A stretch of 42,589 nucleotides of DNA from Candidatus Cloacimonadota bacterium (GTDB lineage: Bacteria > Cloacimonadota > Cloacimonadia > Cloacimonadales > Cloacimonadaceae). The stretch's first letter is position 1. Every line of letters starts with the position of its first letter. Position numbers and translations under genes: made by a program. Positions 7,606 through 37,053 of this stretch are shown here, in pieces. The DNA lies in assembly GCA_012839325.1 (NCBI GenBank), contig DUNQ01000031.1, positions 1 through 42,589 of the forward strand, written 5' to 3'. The notes under the pieces were generated by a model. The model had not been told where the DNA came from, searched no databases, and saw only the letters and a list, made by a program, of their open reading frames with translations.

Positions 7606-7627
7606 GAGTATATCTGTAATTTGGGCA

Positions 7628-7711
7628 GGCAACATCCTGTTGCCGCAGAAAGCGCAGCTTTCTTTCTTTTGGTGCGTAAACGCCCTCGTTTACGCATGCG
7701 CGGGAGCGCAT
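7628..7711. repeat. Chain of four hairpins, dispersed repeat family B
   Basis: Four consecutive stem-loops: GGCAACA/TGTTGCC (7628-7644), AGAAAGC/GCTTTCT (7647-7663), GCGTAAAC/GTTTACGC around a GCCCTC loop (7674-7695), and ATGCGC/GCGCAT around GGGA (7696-7711). The last three recur in the same order at 9829-9893. Confidence 0.8.
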
Positions 7712-7724
7712 GTTTAAGGAACAT

Positions 7725-7767
7725 TGACGCTCGTCGCAACGAGGGCGTTCCGACACCGACCGTGTCA
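7725..7767. repeat. Structured palindromic repeat family A, copy 1
   Basis: Outer arms TGACGC (7725-7730) and GTGTCA (7762-7767) enclose an inner CTCGT/ACGAG hairpin. The linker GGCGTTCCGACACCGACC closely matches the linkers at 31063, 31116, 32411 and 35371. One G-U pair is needed in the outer stem. Confidence 0.75.
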
Positions 7768-8208
7768 TCCCGTTTTGGCGTCCCAGTATCCATAAAAACC
7801 TATTTCCAGCCAAAAACTCACAAAAATATGCAAAATAATTGTCATTCACAAAAAGATAGCTAAAAGGCTCGATAACATAGTCTTCGCGCGGGTCATCTTG
7901 CCGCGTGCTGAAAAATACTTTAAGAAAAACAAAAATAAATGCCGTTCCAGCATCTCAATTTTCGCATTTTCGACACTATACTTATAGAGACCCAAATTAA
8001 AGAGATTAAAAAAATGAAAATACTTGACTTAAAGATAGATAATATTAAAACTGTTTTTAGTAGCTTATTTGAAAATAAGTTGCTGTGGCGAAGGATGCAA
8101 AGCATACCCTCATTAGAAGCTAAAAATCAAAGAATTAGAATTTATACCAAGCTAAAAACTTAACACTCGATTCTAAGTGAAATAAGAAAACATAATAAGG
8201 AGATTATT

Positions 8209-9729
8209 ATGAAACATGCTGTCCCTTTTCCAAAGCTTCAACTTGCAAGCTCCACACATAGGTTGCTTGCGCTGATTTGCAGTGCGATACTTCTGCTGCT
8301 ATTATACGCTCCCTTGAACGCCGAGGAAGGCTTTGTGGTGAATGTACCGCATTATTTAAGTGATCATGGATTTGCCGGCGTTTATCCTCAATCCATCTAT
8401 ACCTGTTCCGATGATGCTGTGGTAATCGTATCCAGGGTAGTATTTAGTCCGGATGATGTCTTTAACTATTATTGCGGTTCAATTACAAAGCTGAGTCCTA
8501 ATGGAAATCTGTTATGGATAAAGTATTTTCCTGATCCATCCGATTACGGGGATATTGATTGGATTGTGGGGCTCGGCATTGATGAAAACGACACTGTCAG
8601 CCTGATTACCGGTACGTTTGATAACGATCAGAAATATCTGGTTCATGTGGATAGCGATGGGGATATCGATAGCATACCCTTGGACTTGGGTGAGGGATCT
8701 ATCGGGCTGAACAAGGGATTACGTACAGCTTCAGGAGATTTCATTGCTCTCGGCGATATGGTGTCAACCGGCTTATATCCTCTAAATCTGGCATATTACC
8801 GGATTAGTTCCGATGCCCAAGTTTTGGCATCTTCTTTTATACCTCCGGACACCGAGTTTACCCGCACCAAACTCTATGATGCAGAAATAGAAGCCGATGG
8901 AAATGTTCTGATCTCTTGCAAAATAAATCCTGATCAAGACGAACTCTTACGTTTGACTATGGATGGCGTTCTCGTCGAGAGGATTGAGTTGCAGGATGCC
9001 GATTCTCCGGCTATTCTTCACCGTAGTCCGGGATCAGAGCACACGGTTGTTGCTCATAGCGTATATTCAACGGCTTCCAAGAATCAAATCTTACAAATTG
9101 CTTGGGTGGCTGAAGATGATATAACTTACCAGACAATGCTTGATTCTTCTTTCAGAGACACACGGTCAATGATATCAATCGGAGATGATGTTTATACTAT
9201 ATCCAATGCAATCTCTGAATCTGATTATTGCTTAGCTCGTTTTAATTATACAGATTCTTATGAGCTTGCTTGGTCATGGAATCATCCCGAACTCCGGTTC
9301 TATACAGGTAATGAAAATTACATCCATACCCATCATTTACTTAGCAGCACCCAAAGCGGCTGCATCTATGTGGCGGGCAGTTATCGTTATGGTCCTCATT
9401 TAGCAGTTGCTAAGGTTTTGCCCACCGGACAAGTGCCGGTTGAGGATGATATTGCCGTGCCGCCGCTTCAAAAGATAAGTGCTTATCCAAATCCCATGAA
9501 AGAGCATCTTAATCTGAAAATAGACGGCGCATCACCGGAGGAGGCTTCTGCTTGCTTAGAGGTGTATAACATTAAAGGGCAATTAGTCAGAAACTTAGAA
9601 AGCTCGCGTGCCGGCGAATATGTTTGGGATGGATATGACAGTAAGGGCAGGTCTTGTCCCACCGGTATTTACTTTATTAGAGATAGTAAGGGGATTTATA
9701 AACAGACGAAAGTGATCAAGATGAAGTAA
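8209..9729 (+). CDS. Secreted beta-propeller-like protein with T9SS sorting domain
   Basis: 506 residues, start fixed by AATAAGGAG just upstream. The N terminus has a long n-region and a strong hydrophobic core (ALICSAILLLLLYAPLNA) ending at about residue 37. The body has repeated blocks alternating trace phrases such as ITKLSPNGNLLWIKYF and VHVDSDGDID with intervening strands, the pattern of WD/PQQ-like propellers found in T9SS cargo; the blade count was not established. The C terminus has YPNPMKEHLNL, EVYNIKGQLVRNL and GIYFIRD followed by a basic end, a T9SS type A tail. The gene is bracketed by copies of the same hairpin repeats (7628-7711 and 9812-9893). Function unknown. Confidence 0.83.
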   Translation: MKHAVPFPKLQLASSTHRLLALICSAILLLLLYAPLNAEEGFVVNVPHYLSDHGFAGVYPQSIYTCSDDAVVIVSRVVFSPDDVFNYYCGSITKLSPNGNLLWIKYFPDPSDYGDIDWIVGLGIDENDTVSLITGTFDNDQKYLVHVDSDGDIDSIPLDLGEGSIGLNKGLRTASGDFIALGDMVSTGLYPLNLAYYRISSDAQVLASSFIPPDTEFTRTKLYDAEIEADGNVLISCKINPDQDELLRLTMDGVLVERIELQDADSPAILHRSPGSEHTVVAHSVYSTASKNQILQIAWVAEDDITYQTMLDSSFRDTRSMISIGDDVYTISNAISESDYCLARFNYTDSYELAWSWNHPELRFYTGNENYIHTHHLLSSTQSGCIYVAGSYRYGPHLAVAKVLPTGQVPVEDDIAVPPLQKISAYPNPMKEHLNLKIDGASPEEASACLEVYNIKGQLVRNLESSRAGEYVWDGYDSKGRSCPTGIYFIRDSKGIYKQTKVIKMK

Positions 9730-9745
9730 AAGCTATATTGATTAT

Positions 9746-9782
9746 AAAAAAGCCCTTTCCGTGAGTGTGGAGAGGGCTTTTT
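9746..9782 (+). terminator. Rho-independent terminator
   Basis: AAAAAGCCCTTTCC and GGAGAGGGCTTTTT pair (one G-U) across a short loop and end in a T run, 16 nt after the stop of the propeller-like cargo gene. It is close in sequence to the terminator at 5971-6007. Confidence 0.85.
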
Positions 9783-9811
9783 CAATTGTGTTCTGTCGCA
9801 GATGGTGCGGG

Positions 9812-9893
9812 AACGTCCTCGTTGCCGCAGAAAGCGCAGCTTTCTATAATTTGGTGCGTAAACGCCCTCGTTTACGCATGCGCGGAAGCGCAT
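9812..9893. repeat. Chain of hairpins, dispersed repeat family B, second copy
   Basis: Contains AGAAAGC/GCTTTCT (9829-9845), GCGTAAAC/GTTTACGC around GCCCTC (9856-9877) and ATGCGC/GCGCAT around GGAA (9878-9893). The order matches 7647-7711. The final tetraloop differs (GGAA against GGGA) but stays GNRA-type. Confidence 0.8.
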
Positions 9894-9941
9894 ACCTTCT
9901 GTTGGATTCTTTCGCGTCCTCGTGTCGCTCATTTTCCGGTA

Positions 9942-9980
9942 GGTTAACGCCCTCGTTAACCGAGAAAACAACAGTTTTCT
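9942..9980. repeat. Double hairpin, repeat family B variant
   Basis: GGTTAAC-GCCCTC-GTTAACC (9942-9961) followed by AGAAAAC/GTTTTCT (9963-9980). The architecture is the same as at 30931-30973, with different stem letters that still pair. It ends 10 nt from the stop codon of the convergent rtcB gene. Confidence 0.75.
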
Positions 9981-9989
9981 ACTTTCTTA

Positions 9990-11180
9990 TCAATCCGCCG
10001 CTTTAAAGTTATAAATAGGGCGGATAATCTTGAGCACATCCACGGTATCTTTAATATTCTCCATGATCTCTTCGGCGGGCTTATACACCATCGGCGCTTC
10101 GTCTATGGTGGCGCGGCTTACCGAGCTGGTATATACATTCTGCATTCTATCGCGAAACTCATCGAGCGAGACCCTCTGGCGTGCCTGACGACGGCTCATC
10201 ACCCTGCCTGCACCGTGTGGGGCAGAGTAGTTCCAATGCTGGTTTCCTTTGCCGCGACAGATCAGCGAACCGAATTGCATGTTTATCGGGATGAGCAAGA
10301 TCTCATCTTTCTGCGCTGAGACGGCGCCTTTTCTGAGTATCATATTTTTGGTGTCAATATAGTTGTGGATGGTCTGAAATTCATCCAAAACAGTCCAGCC
10401 CATGGTATTGATGATGGTCTCTGCCATGGCGCGACGATTGATGAAGGCATATTCTTGACCGATATCCATGTCGAAGAGATAATCTTGCATGAGTTCGCCT
10501 TCACAATATGCCAAGTTTTTGGGTATTCTGCCTTGGGCTTGCTTGCGTTTGGCGCGCTTGAAATCTTTCTTTTTTACTTTGCCGTCAAATTGGATTCTTT
10601 GGTTGTGCTTGGCGCTTAGGCGAAGGTGTGCTTCTTCCTGATAGTAGCCTGCAATCTGGGTTCCGAGATGGCGAGAGCCGGAGTGAATCACGAGGTAGAG
10701 CGTGCCTTCATCATCCTCATTTATCTCGATAAAGTGATTTCCGCCGCCTAAAGTGCCGATGGATTTATAGGCTCTATCGAGGTTTACGAAGTTCTTGCAT
10801 CTCAGCTCTTCAATGCGGGTTTCGCCGGCGAGAGCGTGGGGAGATTTGCGTATGGAAAATCCGGAAGGGATGCGCTTTTTAATGATATTATCCAGCTTGG
10901 CGAGGTCTATGTCCTCAGCTCTTTCTTTTAGCTTTTGAACCTTCATGCCACAGCCTATGTCCACTCCTACGAAGTTTGGAACCACTTTGTCTGTGATGAG
11001 CATGGTGGTGCCGATCACGCAGCCCAAGCCGGCATGCACGTCCGGCATCACACGAATATTTGCGCCGAGAGCAATCTGCGTCTCGGAATCTAATATCTCT
11101 TTGAGTTGGGAATACGCCGTTGCCTCCACATTCTCTGTGAAAACAATGGCTGAACCATATTTACCTGTTATTTCTATCAT
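9990..11180 (-). CDS. rtcB: RtcB family RNA-splicing ligase
   Basis: RtcB joins 2',3'-cyclic phosphate or 3'-phosphate RNA ends to 5'-OH ends using GTP and Mn2+, in tRNA or rRNA repair. At 396 residues it is close to the usual bacterial length. The metal and guanylylation motifs are present: MPDVHAG (H49), VGVDIGCGM (D74, C77), GGGNHF (H149), IHSGSRHLG (H166), TIHNYI (H272), RKGAVSAQKDE and PHGAGRVMSR (H322, the residue guanylylated in the family). The gene is convergent with the cargo cluster and divergent from the sigma-like gene. No ribosome-binding site precedes the ATG, while a good promoter sits so close that the mRNA is probably leaderless. No archease or RtcA neighbour is present. Confidence 0.95.
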   Translation of the reverse strand: MIEITGKYGSAIVFTENVEATAYSQLKEILDSETQIALGANIRVMPDVHAGLGCVIGTTMLITDKVVPNFVGVDIGCGMKVQKLKERAEDIDLAKLDNIIKKRIPSGFSIRKSPHALAGETRIEELRCKNFVNLDRAYKSIGTLGGGNHFIEINEDDEGTLYLVIHSGSRHLGTQIAGYYQEEAHLRLSAKHNQRIQFDGKVKKKDFKRAKRKQAQGRIPKNLAYCEGELMQDYLFDMDIGQEYAFINRRAMAETIINTMGWTVLDEFQTIHNYIDTKNMILRKGAVSAQKDEILLIPINMQFGSLICRGKGNQHWNYSAPHGAGRVMSRRQARQRVSLDEFRDRMQNVYTSSVSRATIDEAPMVYKPAEEIMENIKDTVDVLKIIRPIYNFKAAD

Positions 11181-11187
11181 AATTGTC

Positions 11188-11217
11188 AGTATACGCTTAT
11201 GTGGGATTTGCTGTCAA
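11188..11217 (-). promoter_or_regulatory. Promoter of rtcB
   Basis: On the minus strand, TTGACA (11217-11212), an 18-nt spacer and TATACT (11193-11188). The -10 box ends 7 nt before the rtcB ATG, so the expected start of transcription is at or beside the start codon. Confidence 0.65.
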
Positions 11218-11298
11218 GTTAAAAAAAAGCGGGGAACTGTTTAGTCTGCTGCCTTTGTGATCGATAATATGAGAAATTGCCCACTCCAAAGTTTCCAC

Positions 11299-11327
11299 TT
11301 GACGGTTTCTGTGTTTTTCCACATACT
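11299..11327 (+). promoter_or_regulatory. Promoter of the sigma-like gene
   Basis: TTGACG (11299-11304), a 17-nt spacer and CATACT (11322-11327). Transcription would start about 20 nt before the ATG at 11355. Confidence 0.55.
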
Positions 11328-11354
11328 GCATGAAATAAAATTCAGGACAAATTG

Positions 11355-12455
11355 ATGAAGCAAATTGAATATTCGGACATAAGTGATATTGCCTATAATC
11401 GTATCGTTGAATCGATTAACAAAATGATCAAAGAGCAATTCCGTTTTCTTAATATCGTTGATGATGTGACGAATCAAATATTTATTGATCTCTTTAAGGC
11501 TTCTATGCCGGGCATTGCTGATGAGGCATTTCAAGAATCAATTGATGCAGCCACTCCCAAAGCGGTTGAAAATACTTTTAAGTACTATCAGAAAATCTCT
11601 TTTTCTTATTGCTTTTCAAAAACAAAACAGCCTGAACTCTCCGAGGATATCTCGCAGGAAGCAATTATGGCTATGCTCAAATCCAAAAACAAGATCAACA
11701 ATATCAACGCATGGCTTTTTCAGGTGACAAACAACCTTTTGTGTAAATATTATGAAAGTCAGAAGCAAGAAAGAGAGCTTTTTGAGATGCTGAGAAATAA
11801 TGCAGCCGTCATCCAACAACTTGATGCGCATGATGATAGCTTTGATATTGTGAACTTAAGCGATTCTGACAAGGAAGCGATTATTGCCAGCGAAGAATTT
11901 CAGGAATATGAGAAAATGATCTCTTTTAAGAGTCTTAAGGAATTTGCTGAATCGATGGATGTAAGTGAAAAAGTGGCTCAAAAAAGAAAAGAAAAGATCA
12001 TCCGCGATCTGAAATCAAAAACTAAGGTTGCAATGGGATGGCAAGTAAGTCGAAGCATACTCAATTACAATCAATATAATGCTATACAAAAGTTCATTCG
12101 TGAGCTTTTAAGCATGGAAAACATCGAAAGATATGTAAAATCAGATGAAGAATTATCTCTGAAAGTCCAAAGCATTATGCAGGGGATAAATGAAATCCAC
12201 GATTGGAAAATAATCATGCAAGATAGCAAAACGTTCAGACTTACAGTCTTTAGTTTGGATGAAAGCATAGGTCCCAGAGCCGTCACCTTTACCCTCTTTC
12301 TAAATCATAGAAACAGCGTTTTAATTAAGGATTTCAAAGAAAATGAGTTTGTGGCAGCTCATAAGCTACCAAAGAATTTCAGAATACCGAGACAGATGGG
12401 TATGTCTATGTTGAGCTATGAAGATATTTTAGCTATGCTGAAACAAGATGAATAG
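11355..12455 (+). CDS. Sigma-70-like (ECF-like) protein with long C-terminal extension
   Basis: 366 residues; the ATG at 11355 follows an AGGAC weak ribosome-binding site and is preferred to the TTG one codon earlier. Residues ~95-135 (LSEDISQEAIMAMLKS then INAWLFQVTNNLLCKYYESQ) match the sigma region 2 pattern: acidic QE motif, short linker, then AWLxxVxxNLxxxYxxxx. A second helical segment (~193-225, LKEFAESMDVSEKVAQKRKE) could be a region-4-type helix-turn-helix. The N-terminal ~90 residues and the last ~140 match nothing I recognise and make it about twice the size of a normal ECF factor. No anti-sigma gene is adjacent. It could instead be a degenerate sigma-derived regulator. Confidence 0.6.
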   Translation: MKQIEYSDISDIAYNRIVESINKMIKEQFRFLNIVDDVTNQIFIDLFKASMPGIADEAFQESIDAATPKAVENTFKYYQKISFSYCFSKTKQPELSEDISQEAIMAMLKSKNKINNINAWLFQVTNNLLCKYYESQKQERELFEMLRNNAAVIQQLDAHDDSFDIVNLSDSDKEAIIASEEFQEYEKMISFKSLKEFAESMDVSEKVAQKRKEKIIRDLKSKTKVAMGWQVSRSILNYNQYNAIQKFIRELLSMENIERYVKSDEELSLKVQSIMQGINEIHDWKIIMQDSKTFRLTVFSLDESIGPRAVTFTLFLNHRNSVLIKDFKENEFVAAHKLPKNFRIPRQMGMSMLSYEDILAMLKQDE

Positions 12456-12478
12456 AGAGACCATAGCCTGATTTTATT

Positions 12479-12511
12479 AAGCTCGACATGCTTTTGTGTC
12501 GAGCTTTTTTG
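12479..12511 (+). terminator. Rho-independent terminator
   Basis: AAGCTCGACA pairs with TGTCGAGCTT around a short loop and is followed by a T run, 24 nt after the stop of the sigma-like gene. Confidence 0.88.
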
Positions 12512-12586
12512 CATCCCTTTTTCTGTGTTGTTGAAGATCTGTTAATAAAATTGGTTATCAAGTAAAGAAAATGAAATTAAAGCCAT

Positions 12587-12728
12587 CAAGTTTACATAAC
12601 ATTTTAAATATTTAGAAATTTGAAAATATTTCCAGCCTTATATTTCAATCACTTAGAAGAGTGATGAAAAAATAGTTGCGATATTTGGGAGTAAAATCCC
12701 GTTTTGGGCTCCTATATAAAAGTAGAGG
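12587..12728 (+). repeat. Bipartite conserved element, copy 1
   Basis: Two blocks are identical to the copy at 19474-19649: a 19-bp block (12587-12605, CAAGTTTACATAACATTTT) and a 28-bp block (12701-12728, containing CTCCTATATAAAAGTAGAGG). The DNA between them differs in sequence and length. The second block contains a TATAAA-like box and lies ~80 nt upstream of a strongly ribosome-bound small ORF, so a promoter role is plausible. Strand is assumed from that context. Confidence 0.7.
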
Positions 12729-12810
12729 CTATTATTTTTATCAAAGCCGCATCGATCAAGTTGTAATTTGGTGAAACATGAGAAATAAAAAGCACAGAAG
12801 GAGGATAAAG

Positions 12811-12921
12811 ATGAGTTTGCTTACATTATACTCGAAAAGAATTGACAGAATATGCGTATGGAAAGTAAATGGCACAATAGTAATGTTTGATGGAGAAATC
12901 GATGGATTTTCGTGTTTATGA
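12811..12921 (+). CDS. Small 36-residue ORF, probable leader peptide
   Basis: ATG at 12811 is preceded by GAAGGAGGATAAAG, one of the strongest ribosome-binding sites in the window. The predicted peptide (MSLLTLYSKRIDRICVWKVN, then 16 more residues ending FSCL) has no transmembrane segment and no recognised family. Its stop (12919-12921) overlaps the start of the next gene at 12902, whose own GGAG lies inside this ORF. A translational-coupling leader is the simplest reading; a functional small protein is also possible. Confidence 0.5.
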   Translation: MSLLTLYSKRIDRICVWKVNGTIVMFDGEIDGFSCL

Positions 12922-13999
12922 ATACCTTAGCGTGTTCATTATGGCATGGCTCTTCGTTTATGGACTCACTCCCTTGATGATGAAGCTTGCCAATAGGATA
13001 AATTTTGTGGACAAGCCGGAGGCGCGCAAGATGCACCTCAAGACAGTTCCGCTCATGGGCGGGATCAGCGTTGGGCTCGGCTTCATTTTATTGTGCGTCT
13101 ATGATGTTGCCATTTCATCCGGCAGATATTTCGATAGACCCATGCTGGGCTATCTTGCGGGCTCCATTCTCATCATAATCATCGGCGCCATCGACGATAG
13201 GCGCGGGATGCAGCCGCTGGTAAAGCTATTCGGACAGTTTTTGGTGAGCATCATCTTCATCTTTACAAATTTCAGGATCATTGAGCTGCAACAGATGTTT
13301 GGCAACATGTTTATCAGCATTCCATTGATGTTGCTCTGGATGGTGGGCTTGATGAATGCGCTGAACTTTTTGGACAATATGGATGGCATCATCAGCGGAA
13401 TGGCGGGGATCTTGGGGCTGGGCTTCTTTGCTTTCGCGCTTTCAAACAGCAATCCATCAAACGAAAATGCCATGGCGTTGATTGCGCTGATTTCTCTTAG
13501 TTTTGCCGGCTCTACCTTTGGCTTTTTGCCATATAATTTCAATCCTGCCAAGATCTTCCTCGGCGATGCAGGCAGCATGTTCATCGGCTATTTCCTATCG
13601 TCCATGGGCATATTAGTTGCGCAATATGCAGGTAATAGACACAATGACAAGTTCTTCTATCTTCTGCCCGTCTTGCTGCTGAGTTATGCCATATTCGATA
13701 TCAGCTTGGTGAGCATCACTCGCAGGCGGGATGGGCGCCACGTGATGCAGGGCGGGAAAGACCACTCTACACACAGGATAAATAACGTCTTAGGCTCTGT
13801 AAAGGTGACGGCGGGGATAGTATATACCCTCAATATCCTCATCGTTTTGACCTCCATCATCATATTCAACATCGGTTCCCGCGAATTGCTCATCGCCTGC
13901 ACCTTGCTTTTCATGGTGTTTTTCTTGCTCTTTGGGCGAAAGCTTGACCAAGTTCCAATCGTGGTTCCGGAAAATCAAAAGAAGGTGAAAAAGGCATGA
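12902..13999 (+). CDS. MraY/WecA-family glycosyl-1-phosphate transferase
   Basis: A polytopic inner-membrane enzyme of the family that transfers a UDP-sugar-1-phosphate (often GlcNAc-1-P) onto undecaprenyl phosphate, the first step of O-antigen, teichoic or capsule glycan synthesis. 365 residues from the ATG at 12902, which has GGAG 6 nt upstream (alternatives at 12890 and 12887). Family motifs: VDKPEARKMH near residue 36, GAIDDRRGM (D98, D99), NALNFLDNMDGI (152-162), FLGDAGSMFIGY (D222) and the late loop GGKDHSTHRI (H288, H291). Because it lacks MraY-specific context (no mur genes), it is more likely WecA/TagO-like than MraY. It heads an operon with envelope lipoproteins. Confidence 0.88.
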   Translation: MDFRVYEYLSVFIMAWLFVYGLTPLMMKLANRINFVDKPEARKMHLKTVPLMGGISVGLGFILLCVYDVAISSGRYFDRPMLGYLAGSILIIIIGAIDDRRGMQPLVKLFGQFLVSIIFIFTNFRIIELQQMFGNMFISIPLMLLWMVGLMNALNFLDNMDGIISGMAGILGLGFFAFALSNSNPSNENAMALIALISLSFAGSTFGFLPYNFNPAKIFLGDAGSMFIGYFLSSMGILVAQYAGNRHNDKFFYLLPVLLLSYAIFDISLVSITRRRDGRHVMQGGKDHSTHRINNVLGSVKVTAGIVYTLNILIVLTSIIIFNIGSRELLIACTLLFMVFFLLFGRKLDQVPIVVPENQKKVKKA

Positions 14000-14733
14000 A
14001 ACTCTATGCATTGGGGACGGGCTCAGGCATGGCGAGCAAGGACTTAAATTGCTCCTGCTATCTGCTTGAAAGAGAAAATAAGAGCTTCATTTTGGACTGC
14101 GGCGAAGGCTGTACGCAGACACTTTTGCGCATGGATTACGACATCCGCGAGATCGAGGCGATCATCATCTGCCACTATCATCCGGATCACCTTTGCGGGA
14201 TTTTTATGCTCATGCAAACCATGTATCTGAAAGGGCGCAAAAAGCCACTGAAACTATATCTACCGGAAAGGGAGGATGAGTTCTTGGGCTTCATGCAATA
14301 TATGTATCTCTTTGAAGAGAGATTTGCATACGAGCTTGAGATCTGCTCCATCTTGGATCTGCCCAAGGATTATCCATATTTTAGTTTAATGAAAAACGAC
14401 CATCTCATCGGCTATACGGCTGTGATAGAAGAAGGGGGCTTGCCAAATCAGCAAAGGGCATATTCGGTGAGAATAGCCGGTGAAAAAGGGGACATGGCAT
14501 ATAGCTCGGATATCGGCGATATCAAGAGCATTGAAAAGCTGATAGACGGCGTGCACACCTTCATCTGTGATGGCTTGCATCCTCCTTATGAGGAATTGGA
14601 AAGACTTTTAGAGCTATCTATTAAGCGTGTGATTTTCACGCATGAAACACCCAAGGAAGCGATCATGAAGCTAAAGGCGCAAGATGCCGGACGCTTTGAA
14701 GAAATAGTGCAAGGGGAGAGCTACACGATATGA
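13996..14733 (+). CDS. Metallo-beta-lactamase-fold hydrolase (RNase Z-like)
   Basis: 245 residues overlapping the preceding gene by ATGA. It has the MBL signature CHYHPDHLCG (H60, H62, D64, H65), the opening ALGTGSGM strand, a later AYSSDIGD with the bridging Asp, and a C-terminal FTHE histidine. This arrangement resembles the RNase Z/arylsulfatase-type subgroup, but the long exosite arm of tRNase Z is not evident, so the substrate is open. It is translationally coupled to both neighbours. No signal peptide, so cytoplasmic. Confidence 0.85.
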   Translation: MKLYALGTGSGMASKDLNCSCYLLERENKSFILDCGEGCTQTLLRMDYDIREIEAIIICHYHPDHLCGIFMLMQTMYLKGRKKPLKLYLPEREDEFLGFMQYMYLFEERFAYELEICSILDLPKDYPYFSLMKNDHLIGYTAVIEEGGLPNQQRAYSVRIAGEKGDMAYSSDIGDIKSIEKLIDGVHTFICDGLHPPYEELERLLELSIKRVIFTHETPKEAIMKLKAQDAGRFEEIVQGESYTI

Positions 14734-16148
14734 AAAATAGGCAAAATCTTGTGCTGATCATCGCTGCTTTCCTGCTTGCGGTGATGCTGATTTCCGGCTG
14801 TGAGATGAATAAGCTCAATAATGCCGAAGCTTTATACAGGCAAAAGAGTTATGTGGGCGCAATCGAGGCTGCGGATCAGCTGATACGCACGGCAAATAAC
14901 GGTGCGATCGCCACTCGTGCCGAGATCCTGCGCGGCGATAGCTATCTTGCGCTGGGCATGATGGCTCTTGAGCGCGACAATCGTCCTTTGGCAATCCGCT
15001 TTTTGAAGCTGGCAAATTCACCTGATGCGGATCATGAATTGGCTTCTCTGTACTATCGCATGGGTGAAGAAGTCTATGAAGAAGGCGATCTGGTGAAAGC
15101 CATGAGTTATATGCAGGACATCCTGCGCGAGATCCCTGAAACCGAGCTCATGCCGATGGTTGCCTATCGCCGCATCAATATCTTTGTGGATGAATATAAA
15201 GATTATGACGCCGCTTATGAGGAGTATAAGGCTCTCTATGACAATTATCCCGATCATGAATATGAGCTTTTGGCGCGCGAAGAGGTAAAGAAATTCATCG
15301 ATATGCGCGTGGAATATGCAACGAGGCTACTAAATGGCGGATATTATACAGATTCATTCCGCGAGCTTTTTGAGCTTTCGCAATATCCCGTGGTGGAGAT
15401 CGGCGTGGTGAATGCTCTCATCGGCGATGTCTATATGGCTCAGGGTGAACAGTTTGTTCAAGAAGAGGATTACATTGAAGCGGATAGGCTTTATCGCATT
15501 GCAGTTCAATATAATCCGCATAAAGAGGGCGAGGTCAAATCGCGCCTGGAAGGCATCATCGGGCTCTATATCACCAAAGGCAATGAACTGATGGGTGAGC
15601 GCAGGTTTGATGAGGCGAGGCTACACTATAACAAGTCTTTTGATATCATTCCCGATTACGAGCCCGCGAATCTGGCGCTTGCTGCTTTGGATAAGAGAGA
15701 AAGCGATATCGCAAGAGCGATTGAACTCGTGGAAGAAGCCGAAGAATATGAGCGTAAGGGACAGATCGCGGATGCGCTGAGGCTCTACAATCAGGCTATT
15801 GCCTTGGACGCCTTGCCCATATATCAGGAAAGGGCGCGTCTGGCGCAAAACATGGTGGAAGCCGAGCGCGATCCTCTCGCTTTTGCGCAAAGAATATTGT
15901 ATTCACATCGCAATGGCATCATCCCGCGGAGGGTGGAAGAGAAGCGTCAGGATATACTCAAAGAGTATAAATCAAACGAGATAAGGGATAGCGGATGGAA
16001 GTTTTTGCTCTCTTCGGGACAATATAAGTTTGAGGCTCGTTATGATCTGCTCACGCCTGTGACGACCTTCCTGTATGTCTGGCAGATAAATCTCAGGGAT
16101 AGGTCTATCATCCCGCTGAACAAACAATCAGAAGAGATGATGAATTAG
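14730..16148 (+). CDS. TPR-repeat lipoprotein
   Basis: 472 residues, overlapping the hydrolase gene by ATGA. It begins with a lipoprotein signal peptide ending in LISGC (Cys24). The rest is mostly tetratricopeptide-like helical pairs (AEALYRQKSYVGAIEAADQL, RRFDEARLHYNKSFDI, KGQIADALRLYNQAIAL), suggesting a scaffold in the periplasm or on the outer membrane. A last ~70-residue segment (SGWKFLLSSGQYKFEARYDL onward) looks beta-rich and differs from the repeats. It is followed 12 nt later by a DUF5683-like protein, so a shared envelope role is likely. Partner unknown. Confidence 0.82.
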   Translation: MKNRQNLVLIIAAFLLAVMLISGCEMNKLNNAEALYRQKSYVGAIEAADQLIRTANNGAIATRAEILRGDSYLALGMMALERDNRPLAIRFLKLANSPDADHELASLYYRMGEEVYEEGDLVKAMSYMQDILREIPETELMPMVAYRRINIFVDEYKDYDAAYEEYKALYDNYPDHEYELLAREEVKKFIDMRVEYATRLLNGGYYTDSFRELFELSQYPVVEIGVVNALIGDVYMAQGEQFVQEEDYIEADRLYRIAVQYNPHKEGEVKSRLEGIIGLYITKGNELMGERRFDEARLHYNKSFDIIPDYEPANLALAALDKRESDIARAIELVEEAEEYERKGQIADALRLYNQAIALDALPIYQERARLAQNMVEAERDPLAFAQRILYSHRNGIIPRRVEEKRQDILKEYKSNEIRDSGWKFLLSSGQYKFEARYDLLTPVTTFLYVWQINLRDRSIIPLNKQSEEMMN

Positions 16149-28913: not shown

Positions 28914-30245
28914 TTAGATTACTCTTGCCGGAGGCTCTTCGCCTTGCACGATCGCGATGGCATTTTTTGCGGCAAGTTCGCCCATGTCGGAGCGGGTCTT
29001 GAAGCTCGCCGAACCGATATGCGGAAGCATCACAACGTTTTCCAACTGCATAAGTTCATCCGGGATAAAGGGTTCCTGTGCAAAGACGTCTAATCCCGCA
29101 GAGAAGATTTCACCATTTTTCAGCGCCGCGATCATGGCTTCTTCATCCACGATCTGACCGCGGGCGGTATTGATCAAGACAGCGCTTTTCTTCATCATGG
29201 CGAGCTCTTTGGCGCCGATGAGACCGTCGGTTTCGGGCGTGAGCGGACTGTGTAAGCTCAGGATGTCGCTCTCCTTAAGCAGAGTCTCAAAATCCACCAA
29301 TTCGGCTTCAAAATCCAGCTCTTTTGGAGTGCGTGAGTGATAGATGATGCGCATGCCAAAGCCTGTGGCTCTTCGCGCAACTGCTTGGCCTATGCGTCCC
29401 ATTCCTAAGATTCCCAAGGTTTGACCGTGCACGTCTTGTCCTAAATATAGCATGGGTTCCCAGCCCGTGAACTTGCCCTGACGCAGGAAAATCTCGCTTT
29501 CCGGGATGCGCCGCGCGGCAGCCATGACCAGCGACCATGCGATATCGGCGGTGCTTTCCGTGAGCACACCGGGAGTGTTGCAAACCGCTATATTGCGCTC
29601 TTTTGCGGCATCAAGATCGATATTATTATAACCAACGGCATAGTTTGAAACCACTTTGAGCTTTTTGCCTTTGTCCATGAGCTCGGCATTGATTTTGTCT
29701 GAAAGCAGGCAGAGCAGCGCATCTTTATCCGCTACGGCTCCCAACAGCTCTTCACGGCTGAGTCCGCGCTCGGCGGTATTTGCATGAACTTCAAACACTT
29801 CGCTTAAAAGATCAATGGCATTTTGCGGGATGAGGCGCGTGAGCAAAAGCTTTGGTTTGCTCTCATCGGGATTGAGGATTTCTATGGGGTTTTCCGCGCC
29901 TTCCGGGCACTCACCTGGTTTAAGGAAATATTGGAATTCCAGGCTTCTGCCTTCGGGGTCTTTGCCCCAAAAATGGTAGATATTATAATCGGGATTTACC
30001 TTAGGTTTTGTGGTGGAAATCTCCTCAAAGGTCTGATAAACGGCGTCCACTTCCTTTATGGAATCATAGAGAAAGGTGATCGTTCCGGCGGTTTCAGCTT
30101 CGTCTGAATTGCAAAAGCCCAGCTTCAAATTGCCTTTTTCAAAGATCAGGCAGGAGCCTTGGTCGAGCCAGAGATTCATACCCATCTTGCCTTGATAAAA
30201 AGATTGTATCTCTTTTAATTTCTGAGTCTTATAAAAGATAATCAT
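28914..30245 (-). CDS. VOC-domain / D-2-hydroxyacid dehydrogenase fusion
   Basis: A single 443-residue frame combining two families. Residues ~1-112 resemble a glyoxalase/bleomycin-resistance (VOC) domain: YKTQKLKEIQSFYQGKMGMN at the start and GKDPEGRSLEFQYF near the end. Residues ~130-443 are a D-isomer-specific 2-hydroxyacid dehydrogenase with the NAD-binding GILGMGRIGQAVA (281-286 core), NTARG (R362), DVFAQEP (E391) and LPHIGSAS (H409), the expected catalytic Arg-Glu-His set of the glyoxylate/hydroxypyruvate reductase group. The domains are joined by a short linker. Whether the VOC part binds metal or is a sensor is unclear. A fusion of this kind is not one I know as standard. Confidence 0.88.
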   Translation of the reverse strand: MIIFYKTQKLKEIQSFYQGKMGMNLWLDQGSCLIFEKGNLKLGFCNSDEAETAGTITFLYDSIKEVDAVYQTFEEISTTKPKVNPDYNIYHFWGKDPEGRSLEFQYFLKPGECPEGAENPIEILNPDESKPKLLLTRLIPQNAIDLLSEVFEVHANTAERGLSREELLGAVADKDALLCLLSDKINAELMDKGKKLKVVSNYAVGYNNIDLDAAKERNIAVCNTPGVLTESTADIAWSLVMAAARRIPESEIFLRQGKFTGWEPMLYLGQDVHGQTLGILGMGRIGQAVARRATGFGMRIIYHSRTPKELDFEAELVDFETLLKESDILSLHSPLTPETDGLIGAKELAMMKKSAVLINTARGQIVDEEAMIAALKNGEIFSAGLDVFAQEPFIPDELMQLENVVMLPHIGSASFKTRSDMGELAAKNAIAIVQGEEPPARVI

Positions 30246-30973: not shown

Positions 30974-31018
30974 CGTTAAATCCTTAAATCGCTAAATCGG
31001 TGAACAAAGTGAGCGCAA
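30974..31018. repeat. TAAATCG-rich repeat block, left copy
   Basis: Repeated CTAAATCG-type units followed by GTGAACAAAGTGAGCGCAA. It closely matches 35453-35506, which lies beyond the restriction-modification genes. Confidence 0.65.
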
Positions 31019-31062
31019 TCCCTTCGATCCGTCAAATCCGAGTTCTATTTATTAAGGAATGC

Positions 31063-31105
31063 AGTCTCTCGTGGCAACGAGGACGTTCCCACCCCGACCG
31101 AGACA
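31063..31105. repeat. Structured palindromic repeat family A, copy 2
   Basis: Outer arms GTCTC (31064-31068) and GAGAC (31100-31104), inner hairpin CTCGT-GGCA-ACGAG (31068-31081). The outer pair is fully complementary despite differing from the other copies. Confidence 0.8.
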
Positions 31106-31115
31106 GCGCAACACT

Positions 31116-31158
31116 TGTCTCTCGTGGCAACGAGGGCGTTCCCAAACCGATCGCGACA
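31116..31158. repeat. Structured palindromic repeat family A, copy 3
   Basis: Outer arms TGTCTC (31116-31121) and GCGACA (31153-31158) with one mismatch, inner hairpin CTCGT-GGCA-ACGAG (31121-31134). Tandem neighbour of copy 2. Confidence 0.75.
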
Positions 31159-32606: not shown

Positions 32607-34202
32607 GTGGAAAGCGCAAAGGTAGACCTTATCAGCTTGAAAGACGCGAGCCTGTGGGCATCAAATCATCTTGGGAGATCAGTAAGCATATCAAACATCA
32701 GCTATTTAGTCCAGTATGGAAGAATCGAAAAGCATGATGATGCCGGCAATGTTTTAGTTTCCAAAGAAGAATTGGAGAAGTATTACAAGTCTCACAATAG
32801 TTCGCGTAAAGAACGCTGGAAAAAGATATTAGGTGATGACTTAAATTGGGATCTATCATTTGAGCAATATACCGAAGCTCAGACCACTAAACACGTGCAT
32901 AGATTGCACCCATATAAGGGAAAATTTATACCTCAGCTGGTAGAGTATTTCCTTGATCAACATACAGATAGCTTTAAGCAGGAAATCTTTTTCAAGCCTG
33001 GAGACATCGTTCTTGATCCCTTTTTGGGAAGCGGCACCACATTAATTCAAGCAAATGAATTGGGCATCAATGCAATAGGTGTAGACGTATCTGCTTTTAA
33101 TGTAATGATATCCGGCAGTAAGATCAGCAAGTATGACATACTGGATATTGAACGGGAAACAAAAAGAATCACAAAAGCCTTGCGTTTATTTCTCACGGAT
33201 TCAAAAACACTGGAACTTGATAGACGCATATTAGACGAGCTTGGTGCATTTAATGCAAAGCACTTTCCCAGCCCCGACTATAGATACAAGGTTAGAAATG
33301 GGGTAATTGATGAGAAGAGCTACGTTCCGGAAAAAGAAAAAGAGTTTTTGAAAACATATCATGCGCTCGTTGATGAATATGGAGTTAAACTATTGCAAGA
33401 TAGTGATGATACATTCCTTGATAAATGGTTTTTAACACCCGTTAGAGAAGAAATTGATTTTGTATATAAAGAAATACAAAAGGTTGAAAACCCGAAAACA
33501 AGAAAGATACTCGCAATTGTTTTAAGCCGAACAGTTAGAAGTTGCAGAGCTACTACACATGCGGATTTGGCTACCCTCAAAGATCCCGTATCAGAAAGCT
33601 ATTATTGTGCGAAACATGGCAAGATTTGTAAGCCTCTGCTATCGATATTGAGATGGTGGAACACATATTCAAAAGACACAATTAAGCGCATCACACAATT
33701 TGATAAATTAAGAACAGATACATATCAGATTTGCCTTACGGATGATAGCAGAAATGTGGATATCATCAAAAGAGTGAGCGATATCATGCCCGATTTTGCC
33801 GAAATGATAGAGTCTAAGGGAATTAAGGGCATCTTTACTTCACCGCCCTACGTGGGGCTGATTGACTATCATGAACAGCACGCCTATGCTTATGATCTCT
33901 TTGGATTTGCCCGAAATGATGATCTTGAGATTGGACCTCTATTTAGGGGGCAGGGTAGAGAGGCACAAGAGTCTTATACAAAAGGTGTTGCGGCAGTTTT
34001 AAATAATTCAAAGAGATTTTTGAGCGATGACTACGATGTGTTTTTGGTGGCTAATGATAAACATAACCTGTATCCCAAGATTGCTGAACTGGCTGGAATG
34101 CAAATAGTTAATCAATATAAACGCCCTGTTTTGAATAGAACTGAAAAAGACAAAGGCGCTTATGCCGAAACCATATTTCATCTAAAGGACAAAGAACAAT
34201 GA
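32607..34202 (+). CDS. Type II DNA methyltransferase (N4-cytosine/N6-adenine class)
   Basis: 531 residues starting at GTG (32607) with AGAGGAGA upstream. The N-terminal ~60 residues resemble a MerR/excisionase-type helix-turn-helix (LKDASLWASNHLGRSVSISN, then VSKEELEKYY). Motif I is VLDPFLGSGTT (135-145, S-adenosylmethionine binding) and motif IV is FTSPPY (410-415, catalytic SPPY typical of amino-methyltransferases). About 265 residues separate them, with motif I first, so the target-recognition segment lies between. The gene overlaps the next by ATGA. Base use is more AT-rich than the flanking operons, consistent with acquisition. The recognition sequence cannot be read from the protein. 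Confidence 0.9.
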   Translation: MESAKVDLISLKDASLWASNHLGRSVSISNISYLVQYGRIEKHDDAGNVLVSKEELEKYYKSHNSSRKERWKKILGDDLNWDLSFEQYTEAQTTKHVHRLHPYKGKFIPQLVEYFLDQHTDSFKQEIFFKPGDIVLDPFLGSGTTLIQANELGINAIGVDVSAFNVMISGSKISKYDILDIERETKRITKALRLFLTDSKTLELDRRILDELGAFNAKHFPSPDYRYKVRNGVIDEKSYVPEKEKEFLKTYHALVDEYGVKLLQDSDDTFLDKWFLTPVREEIDFVYKEIQKVENPKTRKILAIVLSRTVRSCRATTHADLATLKDPVSESYYCAKHGKICKPLLSILRWWNTYSKDTIKRITQFDKLRTDTYQICLTDDSRNVDIIKRVSDIMPDFAEMIESKGIKGIFTSPPYVGLIDYHEQHAYAYDLFGFARNDDLEIGPLFRGQGREAQESYTKGVAAVLNNSKRFLSDDYDVFLVANDKHNLYPKIAELAGMQIVNQYKRPVLNRTEKDKGAYAETIFHLKDKEQ

Positions 34203-35260
34203 ACTTGGAAAAGAAAACACAAGAAGAGATAGCAATTGAAGTTATTAGGGTGCTCGTTCACAGATTTAAACTTTTCCCAAACTCAAAACAGAGTATTAGA
34301 AATGCTCCATTTCATAAGGCTTTTTTAGCAGCATTCGCTGACAAGATCGGTCAGAGCAATATAAGTGTTGCAAGGCTAATAGGATTAAGCAGTTGGATGC
34401 ATGGTTTAAACACGACTTTGGGACAGACGTTTTTTGAGAATGTAGCCCACATTCTTTCTGATGGTGAAAAGAAGGAATGGACATCTAAGAAGCTTGGAAA
34501 CCTGAAAATAAGCTCTGCGCAGAAGAGCATGATAAGTGATCTGATAACGGATCTTAGTAATTCAAATAAATTGCCAAATCGAAGAGAAGAAGATGATATG
34601 ATATTGGCTGCAGAAGGTGGCGCGCTCGTTGAAGCTACGAATTTCTCGGCTGATGTGTTTTATGAAACTGACACAGAGGTTGTAGCAATAGAACTTAAGA
34701 CCGTTCAGCCTAATTCGGGTGAATTTAAGGGAGAAAAACAAAAGATACTAGAAGGAAAAGCTGCTTTGCGGAAAGCATATCCTGGCAAAGATGTATACTT
34801 TTATATTGGTTTCCCTTTTGATCGTACGGTTGATACGGAAGATGAGGATCCCTGTAGTTCAAACAAGCAAAGGTTTATGGAAGCCAATATCAATTGCACG
34901 AAATATTTTGCTGAGGCTGAGGTGCTACTTGCAGATGAGCTTTGGGACTTTCTTTCCGGCAAGGAAAATACCATGCAAGATATTCTTACGATAATCAATT
35001 CTATAGCCAAGCCTGACTTTGAACTTAAGTTTGAGAAGCTTTTGCAGATTAAAGAACAAGATAAAAGAGAGATGCTTGAGTTGCTGGAAGAATGGTATTT
35101 ATATTCTGAGATGAATTTGCTTAAGAATGCTGCAAGACTGAGGGATTTGGCTGTTGGGAATGGGTCTTTGTTGAGAGTGCTCAATACAAATGGGTTTAAT
35201 GTTAAGGGTCAATACAACTGGAAAAGATATACCACGTTAATGAGCTTATTTAGAGAATAG
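34199..35260 (+). CDS. Type II restriction endonuclease, probably TdeIII/MjaII-like
   Basis: 353 residues, overlapping the methyltransferase by ATGA, the expected partner arrangement. A PD-(D/E)xK-type core can be seen as SADVFYETDTEVVAIELKTV, with D152, E165 and K167. The upstream block ISVARLIGLSSWMHGLNTTL recalls the TdeIII/MjaII group (GGNCC-type specificity in characterised members), an assignment from memory and only moderately certain. No signal peptide. No separate controller gene is seen; the helix-turn-helix on the methyltransferase could serve that role. Confidence 0.75.
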   Translation: MNLEKKTQEEIAIEVIRVLVHRFKLFPNSKQSIRNAPFHKAFLAAFADKIGQSNISVARLIGLSSWMHGLNTTLGQTFFENVAHILSDGEKKEWTSKKLGNLKISSAQKSMISDLITDLSNSNKLPNRREEDDMILAAEGGALVEATNFSADVFYETDTEVVAIELKTVQPNSGEFKGEKQKILEGKAALRKAYPGKDVYFYIGFPFDRTVDTEDEDPCSSNKQRFMEANINCTKYFAEAEVLLADELWDFLSGKENTMQDILTIINSIAKPDFELKFEKLLQIKEQDKREMLELLEEWYLYSEMNLLKNAARLRDLAVGNGSLLRVLNTNGFNVKGQYNWKRYTTLMSLFRE

Positions 35261-35370
35261 TTTGCTTTATTTGTCTCAATGAAAATCTGGTAAGTTTATG
35301 GCCTCATTGACCGAGAAAGCAAAGGTTTTTGTGCTTGGTTAAGCGGCATCCTGTTGCTAATGTGGGCTGT

Positions 35371-35413
35371 TGTCGCTCGTGGCAACGAGGGCGTTCCCAC
35401 ACCGGCCGCGACA
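35371..35413. repeat. Structured palindromic repeat family A, copy 5
   Basis: Outer arms TGTCGC (35371-35376) and GCGACA (35408-35413) pair over six bases, with inner CTCGT-GGCA-ACGAG (35376-35389). It lies just downstream of the restriction endonuclease gene. A degraded family B segment precedes it (about 35295-35330). Confidence 0.8.
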
Positions 35414-35452
35414 ACGGGATATCACCGCACCGGTCGCGAAAGCATAGCAGCT

Positions 35453-35506
35453 CGTTAAATCGCCAAATCCCTAAATCGCTAAATCGGCGAACGACGTGAG
35501 CACAAC
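35453..35506. repeat. TAAATCG-rich repeat block, right copy
   Basis: CGTTAAATCG, CTAAATCGCTAAATCGG and GCGAACGACGTGAGCACAA closely match the block at 30974-31018. Confidence 0.65.
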
Positions 35507-35513
35507 AAACTCC

Positions 35514-35540
35514 TTGACTTTTCACACTATATTTTATCCT
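35514..35540 (+). promoter_or_regulatory. Candidate promoter for the riboswitch transcript
   Basis: TTGACT (35514-35519), a 15-nt spacer and TATCCT (35535-35540). The predicted transcription start (~35547) falls just before the aptamer, supporting the assignment despite the short spacer. Confidence 0.4.
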
Positions 35541-35553
35541 TGGCATCGTGACT

Positions 35554-35732
35554 TGACGGTGCTATTCATAGGTAATAGGGAATTCGCAAGCGAAGCGGCC
35601 TCCGCCACTGTATGCAGCATCACGGGTGAGTTTTGCCACTGTTTGAAAAAAATCAAATGGGAAGGCTGGGCTCGACGCTGACGGAAACACAATCCGAGCA
35701 ACCCGCTGTGAGCCAGGAAACCTGCCAGCAAG
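35554..35732 (+). promoter_or_regulatory. Cobalamin (B12) riboswitch aptamer
   Basis: Hallmarks in order: GACGGTGCTATTCATAGG-type opening stem, AATAGGGAA (35574-35582), CCGCCACTGTA (35602-35612), then TGCCACTG and TGGGAAGGC (about 35635-35656), the ACGCTGACGG segment, and the B12 box AGCCAGGAAACCTGCC (35711-35726). These match the conserved core of adenosylcobalamin-class riboswitches, which lower expression of B12 uptake or synthesis genes when cobalamin is plentiful. The only gene downstream in the same direction within 1.3 kb is the secreted propeller at 35821. Confidence 0.93.
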
Positions 35733-35739
35733 TATCTTA

Positions 35740-35818
35740 GAGGTGAGATCTCCGGAGTTTTGAGATCAATCCTGTTTAGCGTTCATCTCAAGTCACAATC
35801 ATTAAAAAAGAGGTGAAC
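35740..35818 (+). promoter_or_regulatory. Riboswitch expression platform sequestering the ribosome-binding site
   Basis: GTTCATCTC (35781-35789) can pair with GAGGTGAAC (35810-35818), which contains the ribosome-binding site of the gene at 35821. The same segment can instead pair with GAGGTGA (35740-35746), next to a nested GATCTC/GAGATC hairpin (35747-35767). The two pairings exclude each other, which fits translational control. Folding was done by eye. Confidence 0.65.
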
Positions 35819-35820
35819 AG

Positions 35821-37053
35821 ATGAAACTCAGACAAATTATCCTGATACTCTTTGCGCTTGTGCTGATCAGTGTTTTAGGCGCAGAGACGATATGGGTGGT
35901 CAATTCCCAATCGCGCACGCTCAGCCGTATTGATACCGACAACGCTCAGGCTGAAAACAACTTTGCCGTTTTAGGCAATTCTCCTAATAAGCTCGCTGTT
36001 AGCGAAGACGCCTTGTGGGTGGTCAATTCCGGCGACAATTCCATTCAAAAGATAGATCCCGTCAGCGGTCAAACTTTGGCAAATTACTTGGTGGAAGTGG
36101 GCAGCAATCCCTGGGATATGGTTTTGCACGAAGGTTTTGGCTATATCAGCGGACTATTTACGGGCAAGATTTATAAGATGGATCTCGATACGGGCGAAGT
36201 CGTGGCTTCCGTGTATGCGGGCGTAGCTCCCGAGGGGATGGCGATCTACAATGAAAAGCTCTACGCGGTTTGCAGCGGCGATTATATGTTAGATCATGCC
36301 GGTAGCGCCTTGGTGGTGATAGAATTGGATAGCTTTTCTATTGTGCATGATATTGAAATGCCGGCAAATCCGCAGTATGTGGTTGTGCATGAAGAGAATA
36401 TCCACGTCTCCTGCACGGGCAATTGGGCGGATATCAGCGGACAGATAGTAATCTTGGACGAGGATGCTGATATCATCACCACGTTTGAATTGGGTAGAAC
36501 TCCGGGGAATATCTGGTTTAATCCCGAAGGCGTGGCATTTGTGGCGGATAGCTCCGGCGATGCAATGTATTCTTACTATTTTGATGGCTTTGAGGCGGAG
36601 GCTCTTTCGGCGCCTGCCTTCAGTGCATCGGATATCTGCGGAAGTGATCAGTTTATAGCTCTGCTTTTGCCAAATTGGGGTGATAACGGCACCGTTGAGG
36701 TCTATGATGAGGATTTCATTCCGTGGGGAAGCTACACGGTTGGGATGATGCCCTCGGATATCAAGATATGGGCGGAGCCGGTTTCCATCAGCGATGAGGT
36801 GGCTCCTGCAGCGATATTTGGAGTTTATCCCAATCCCGTGCATCAGAGCGGAATGCTCAAGCTGGAAGGTGAGATGTTTGGCGAGACCACAGTCTCCATC
36901 TTCAACCTGCGCGGTCAATTAGTGAAAAAGAATATGCTGAGGCAAAACGACAGAAACTTGGATATCTCGGGACTAAACAGCGGCATATATTTCTACCAAG
37001 TAAATGATGGTAAATCACGGGCTTCAGGTAAGTTTATCGTTATAAATTCATAG
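35821..37053 (+). CDS. Secreted YncE-like beta-propeller with T9SS tail, candidate B12-capture protein
   Basis: 410 residues with GAGGTGA upstream. The signal peptide spans ~1-21 (LILFALVLISVLGA). Residues ~23-320 are repeated propeller blades of the YncE/YVTN type: IWVVNSQSRTLSRIDTD, LWVVNSGDNSIQKIDPVSGQ, GFTGKIYKMDLDTGEVV-like units and TFELGRTPGNIWFNPEG; about seven can be counted. Residues ~331-410 are a T9SS type A tail (VYPNPV at 335-340, SIFNLRGQLVKK, GIYFYQV). It is the sole gene of a cobalamin-riboswitch transcript. Bacteroides BtuG, a surface beta-propeller that binds B12 with BtuB, offers a functional analogy. B12 binding here is inference; no BtuB, TonB or BtuF gene is in the window. 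Confidence 0.85.
   Translation: MKLRQIILILFALVLISVLGAETIWVVNSQSRTLSRIDTDNAQAENNFAVLGNSPNKLAVSEDALWVVNSGDNSIQKIDPVSGQTLANYLVEVGSNPWDMVLHEGFGYISGLFTGKIYKMDLDTGEVVASVYAGVAPEGMAIYNEKLYAVCSGDYMLDHAGSALVVIELDSFSIVHDIEMPANPQYVVVHEENIHVSCTGNWADISGQIVILDEDADIITTFELGRTPGNIWFNPEGVAFVADSSGDAMYSYYFDGFEAEALSAPAFSASDICGSDQFIALLLPNWGDNGTVEVYDEDFIPWGSYTVGMMPSDIKIWAEPVSISDEVAPAAIFGVYPNPVHQSGMLKLEGEMFGETTVSIFNLRGQLVKKNMLRQNDRNLDISGLNSGIYFYQVNDGKSRASGKFIVINS

Follow-up and report, generated by a model that had tools for sequence, protein, structure and literature searches.

A BtuG-like propeller with a predicted type IX secretion tail behind a cobalamin riboswitch in Cloacimonadota

The locus, its leader and the predicted export of its product

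In this work we have examined a cobalamin riboswitch and the gene that follows it in a genome of Candidatus Cloacimonadota. The window, by which we mean the whole stretch of 42,589 nucleotides that was analysed, is one entire contig (C13) of a genome of 2.0 Mb in 147 contigs that is 94.9% complete. The features of the locus are collected in Table 1.

Table 1. Features of the riboswitch leader and of the propeller gene
Feature	Position in the window	Strand	Evidence or remark
Cobalamin riboswitch aptamer (RF00174)	35540..35743	+	74.2 bits against a gathering cut-off of 31.5, E 1.3e-16
GTGACTTGA, 5' strand near the aptamer base, proposed switching strand	35548..35556	+	9-nt complement to 35788-35796
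B12 box	35710..35726	+	exact GAGCCAGGAAACCTGCC; same motif ahead of most orthologues
Anti-Shine-Dalgarno GTTCATCTC	35781..35789	+	pairs with 35810-35818
TCAAGTCAC, alternative partner of the aptamer 5' strand	35788..35796	+	complementary to GTGACTTGA, directly 3' of the anti-Shine-Dalgarno
Shine-Dalgarno region GAGGTGAAC	35810..35818	+	sequence; kept across orthologues
Whole propeller gene, 410 aa	35821..37053	+	open reading frame
Signal peptide, about residues 1-21, without lipobox	35821..35883	+	read from the sequence
BtuG-like seven-bladed beta-propeller, residues 22-318	35884..36774	+	AlphaFold2, Foldseek, profile matches
T9SS type A C-terminal sorting domain, residues 335-407	36823..37041	+	PF18962, TIGR04183

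The aptamer match spans the full length of the Rfam model, is the sole Rfam match within the window and ends 77 nt before the start codon of the propeller gene. TTGACT at 35514-35519 is suggestive as a promoter element, and no clear -10 element to go with it was found by eye. The cobalamin aptamer with its B12 box, which the initial annotation had recognized from the sequence alone, is borne out by the Rfam score and the exact box, and its proposal of a translational-type platform is upheld by the pairing of the Shine-Dalgarno (SD) region with the anti-SD. The two strands are complementary at all nine positions, including one G.U, and a complement of at least 7 nt is kept in 20 of the 22 orthologous leaders; in the leader of L018 both sides are changed (ATTCATCTC with GAGGTGGAT) and the pairing is retained. 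Within a single leader such a match is only moderately rarer than in shuffled sequences (0.06 for the window), so it is the conservation across leaders that carries the argument for the platform. Of the 22 leaders, 17 have both halves of the long-range helix, GTGACTTGA and TCAAGTCAC, one of them with a G.U, and the remaining five have neither. In the window, the anti-SD hairpin has two bases in common with this helix; the two cannot nest, and their duplex energies are nearly equal (-11.8 kcal/mol for the helix and -10.9 kcal/mol for the hairpin). We infer a strand exchange between the two. When B12 is scarce, the long-range helix would form and leave the SD open, and the propeller protein would be made; when B12 is bound, the base stem of the aptamer would keep its own 5' strand and the anti-SD hairpin would close translation.

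The window protein searched alone against Pfam gave no named propeller above cut-off, and a family alignment was therefore needed. AlphaFold2, run on the alignment of orthologues, modelled the propeller protein with a mean pLDDT of 90.9, and the strands of the model form seven four-stranded blades, as assigned by us, and a closing C-terminal strand. The C-terminal tail scores 56.4 bits with PF18962 (cut-off 27) and 54 bits with TIGR04183 (cut-off 23), and a lipobox scan found none in the window protein or its closest orthologues. Our check of the type IX secretion (T9SS) machinery covered PorU and SprA, and both are encoded in the genome (549 bits with a cut-off of 420, and 472 bits combined with a cut-off of 200). 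The signal peptide, propeller blades and type A tail described in the initial annotation are thus confirmed by sequence, model and tail profiles, and the protein is supported as a predicted T9SS type A cargo that would be attached to the cell surface. Is it possible that the tail fails to work as a T9SS signal, leaving the protein in the periplasm as a B12 carrier? The machinery evidence is made up of PorU and SprA and secretion is predicted, which leaves some room for this reading. However, the tail lies above the cut-off of two curated models, PF18962 matches 29 of 30 family members at E 0.01 or better and many other open reading frames (ORFs) of the genome end in similar T9SS-like tails, and we consider a periplasmic carrier very improbable.

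Several other features of the contig were recorded. Further large ORFs with T9SS-like C-terminal tails lie between 327 and 9729 (matches at 3180, 5689 and 9466), so T9SS cargo is abundant on this contig. The stretches 35355-35500 and 30978-31158 hold a repeat with its core near TTGTCGCTCGTGGCAACGAGGGCGTTCCC; the genome holds 55 matches to it, including four at other places on this contig, and it looks like a dispersed intergenic repeat. Of the two overlapping genes at 32607-35260, the first has by eye a motif like that of DNA methyltransferases (TSPPY), and the second is a candidate for the nuclease that would complete a restriction-modification pair. A 443-aa ORF on the reverse strand (28914-30245) resembles, again by eye, a glyoxalase-type domain fused to a D-2-hydroxyacid dehydrogenase.

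Relation of the propeller to BtuG

We compared the family with known structures by a profile search against the PDB and by a Foldseek search with the AlphaFold2 model. In the profile search, 12 of the 13 best matches were BtuG chains (6e-21 to 4e-12), the top match was 1L0Q at 5e-27 and E. coli YncE was matched at 1e-5. Foldseek placed 1L0Q first and BtuG at ranks 2-17 (1.7e-15 to 2e-13), with TM-scores by target length of 0.72-0.80 against most BtuG entries; a gap followed and then nitrous oxide reductase, the first unrelated match having a value of 1.4e-11. The Pfam family DUF5074 is shared as well, being matched by a BtuG1 fragment over the cut-off, by a BtuG3 fragment just below it and by 11 of 30 members of our family. 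These three lines of evidence support the relationship to BtuG that had been proposed for this gene, at an identity of only 13-18%. The similarity is not exclusive to BtuG, since both searches rank 1L0Q first, a YVTN propeller with a PKD domain from an archaeal S-layer. To our knowledge this surface layer protein has no link to B12, and YVTN/YncE propellers bind varied ligands. Could the propeller bind some other ligand, and belong to the B12 regulon since that ligand is needed when B12 is low? A generic surface propeller as the top match would agree with this, whereas BtuG structures dominate the Foldseek list and, in one locus described below (L070), the annotated same-strand neighbours from the B12 box to the propeller are all B12 import genes. 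We therefore regard another ligand as improbable.

The initial annotation had suggested a comparison of the binding faces. The aromatic residues of the B12 pocket of BtuG2 are Trp194, Trp272 and Tyr316, of which we compared the two tryptophans that narrow the upper-ligand pocket (PMC10404256). They sit in a BC and a DA loop (chain numbering), and in our family the BC/DA loops are more conserved than the AB/CD loops (0.63 versus 0.44), so the face that bears these B12 contacts in BtuG is the conserved face here. The tryptophans themselves are not conserved: by hand mapping from the alignments they fall at about L112 and A182/N183. BtuG1 likewise has no Trp at the mapped places, yet it was solved with cyanocobalamin according to the title of 8ptd. 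Acidic residues are commoner on the AB/CD loops than on the conserved face, a placement unlike that expected if BtuG electrostatics were simply copied.

The B12 regulon and the neighbourhood of the orthologues

In the whole genome there are two cobalamin riboswitches, the one in the window and one on contig C129, which lies directly ahead of the gene for a 731-aa TonB-dependent receptor (TBDR). The best NCBIfam model for this receptor is TIGR01779 (TonB-B12) with 104.8 bits, below the cut-off of 599.7, so the receptor is a relative of that family that falls short of a formal equivalog. When 18 such receptors were combined into a profile, its ten best PDB matches were all BtuB, from B. thetaiotaomicron and E. 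coli (2e-57 to 1e-49). Judged by these matches, the C129 receptor, whose gene has the coordinates L003:8771-10966, is a BtuB-type TBDR. The genome thus does have a BtuB, as a further unit of the B12 regulon to which the propeller gene belongs. A relative of this receptor occurs in 37 of 40 genomes, nearly always as a single gene. The description of the propeller as a single gene without a co-transcribed BtuB holds on this contig and has to be amended for the genome, where the BtuB-like receptor stands under the other riboswitch. The claim that the protein acts without BtuB is not supported: btuB is present in trans with its own riboswitch and adjoins the propeller gene in many relatives, and for these reasons a split BtuB-BtuG pair appears more likely than a stand-alone catcher.

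Near full-length orthologues of the propeller were found in most of 40 relatives. Across the phylum, 90 of 104 genomes have a match at E 1e-20, usually one each, a count that includes a few tail or fragment matches (for example in G036 and G066) and is best read as about 90. The closest genome, G001, has an orthologue that is 73% identical and preceded by the same riboswitch, on which ground contamination as the source of the gene was set aside. Orthologues under cobalamin riboswitches, which the initial annotation had proposed to look for, were indeed found: of 22 same-family orthologues that were retrieved, 21 have the riboswitch just ahead. A remnant riboswitch was sought before the exception among these (L022, from G020) and before L047 and L048 of the named set, and none was found. 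In G002, G003, G004 and G006, btuB adjoins the propeller gene and each of the two has its own riboswitch, and in G024, G034 and other families the propeller gene lies directly 3' of btuB. In the GTDB set a TBDR is immediately upstream of the propeller in 36 of 68 loci, and 21 of the 68 have their own B12 box, two of them together with a TBDR. In L070 a B12 box is followed by genes for a periplasmic binding protein and a FecCD permease, by a pair of opposite-strand genes and then by genes for an ABC ATPase, a TBDR and a propeller that carries a T9SS tail; from its annotation this is a btuF-btuC-(two opposite genes)-btuD-btuB-propeller locus behind one B12 box.

The propeller thus resembles BtuG1, BtuG2 and BtuG3 of B. 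thetaiotaomicron in its predicted seven blades, its riboswitch control, its btuB partner gene and its place in the DUF5074/YncE family. The linkage to btuB under a cobalamin riboswitch that is typical of BtuG is found in the family, whereas in the present genome, which is from Cloacimonadota, the propeller gene is linked to a riboswitch and unlinked to btuB. BtuG proteins, which bind corrinoids very tightly and form stable complexes with BtuB, are moreover surface lipoproteins with a lipobox and a LES, neither of which is present here, and a T9SS C-terminal tail stands in their place. As with the BtuB1/2/3-BtuG complexes, a BtuB-type TBDR belongs to the same regulon; the tether is N-terminal in those complexes and would be C-terminal in the putative complex here. 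Likeness also extends to BtuJ (DUF4465) and BtuH, which serve in accessory surface capture of B12 under riboswitch control (PMC13398666) but have other folds, a jelly roll in the case of DUF4465, and are mostly lipoproteins. Could the propeller then be a surface or extracellular store of B12, similar to the role proposed for BtuJ1, that forms no lid on BtuB and is linked to btuB by shared regulation only? Lipoproteins are lipidated at their N-terminal side, where the linker of BtuG2 would lie; this linker touches BtuB (PMC10404256), and the predicted C-terminal anchor of our protein, as well as the separate positions of the propeller gene and btuB in this genome, each with its own riboswitch, would suit a store. 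On the other hand, btuB is the gene immediately ahead of the propeller gene in many relatives from different phyla, frequently at a distance of no more than 60 nt, and the single copy of each per genome is what is expected of partners; we find a store unlikely.

Further genes of the genome bear on the use of B12. A FecCD permease lies at a contig end, and there are three B12-binding domains, among them those of a methylmalonyl-CoA mutase-like gene and of an aminomutase-like pair. CbiC was not found in the genome. The presence of B12-dependent genes and the failure to find CbiC suggest that the host depends on imported B12, although CbiC is one marker in a genome that is 95% complete and this is not proof.

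Proposed working of the propeller and its wider distribution

Taken together, the gene quite probably encodes a BtuG-like cobalamin-capture propeller that is displayed by T9SS and has as its partner a TonB-dependent transporter, BtuB, whose gene lies elsewhere in the genome. The signal peptide would take the protein across the inner membrane, and the C-terminal tail would direct it to T9SS for passage through the outer membrane. Following processing of the PorU type, the C-terminus would hold it on the surface. Its conserved BC/DA loop face, left free in this way, would bind corrinoids and hand them to BtuB. B12 binding, the direction of the switch, surface attachment and contact with BtuB are all proposed parts of this explanation. 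Since the lipoprotein feature is lacking and B12 binding is among the proposed parts, we do not file the protein as BtuG proper; BtuG-like working with T9SS export is the best-supported explanation. Of the T9SS-attached B12 scavenger imagined in the initial annotation, the kinship to BtuG, the place in the B12 regulon and the T9SS export are retained, with comparative support that includes a conserved linkage to btuB and, once, to btuFCD; working without BtuB is not supported.

Homologues adjoin TBDRs in records labelled Zixibacteria, KSB1, Calditrichota and others, which are other phyla of the FCB group. TIGR01779 was the best model for all nine of the TBDRs tested, each of them below its cut-off. 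T9SS-like tails are found at the ends of most of these wider homologues, and a Cys lipobox without a tail is found in L082, L091, L092 and L095, of which only L082 has a detected neighbouring TBDR. The propellers of L083, L084 and L085 end in a dockerin type I domain over the cut-off; these dockerin-ended BtuG-like propellers lie beside B12-receptor-like TBDRs, and a dockerin is an unusual anchor for a transporter-linked protein. In L078, a Zixibacteria record, two consecutive propeller ORFs follow a TBDR (7546-15584), with a second TBDR beyond; two B12 boxes lie upstream, and the B12 locus may be duplicated here. Perhaps, at what we would call even chances, BtuB-BtuG-type capture is spread over the FCB group with its anchor freely exchanged between T9SS tail, lipid and dockerin, and the propeller of Cloacimonadota, tethered by its C-terminus, forms a lid on a BtuB encoded at another locus.

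According to an earlier report, BtuG homologues are surface lipoproteins found exclusively in Bacteroidetes (PMC6143338), and lipoprotein-capped transporters have been called seemingly exclusive to that group (PMC10404256). A 2026 paper on DUF4465 makes no mention of T9SS (PMC13398666), and our literature search, which covered few subscription papers, found no BtuG or cobalamin protein displayed by T9SS. The BtuG-like propeller described here is close to universal, and single-copy, in a phylum other than Bacteroidetes, with a different predicted export route, and homologues also lie beside B12-receptor-like genes in several further phyla that were believed to lack BtuG. If binding is confirmed, B12 capture by BtuG-like lids would reach beyond the setting of the gut Bacteroides, and the anchor of a transporter-linked capture protein would be exchangeable. 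The propeller would then also be a substrate of T9SS that has a clear role in the nutrition of uncultured anaerobes apparently reliant on imported B12.
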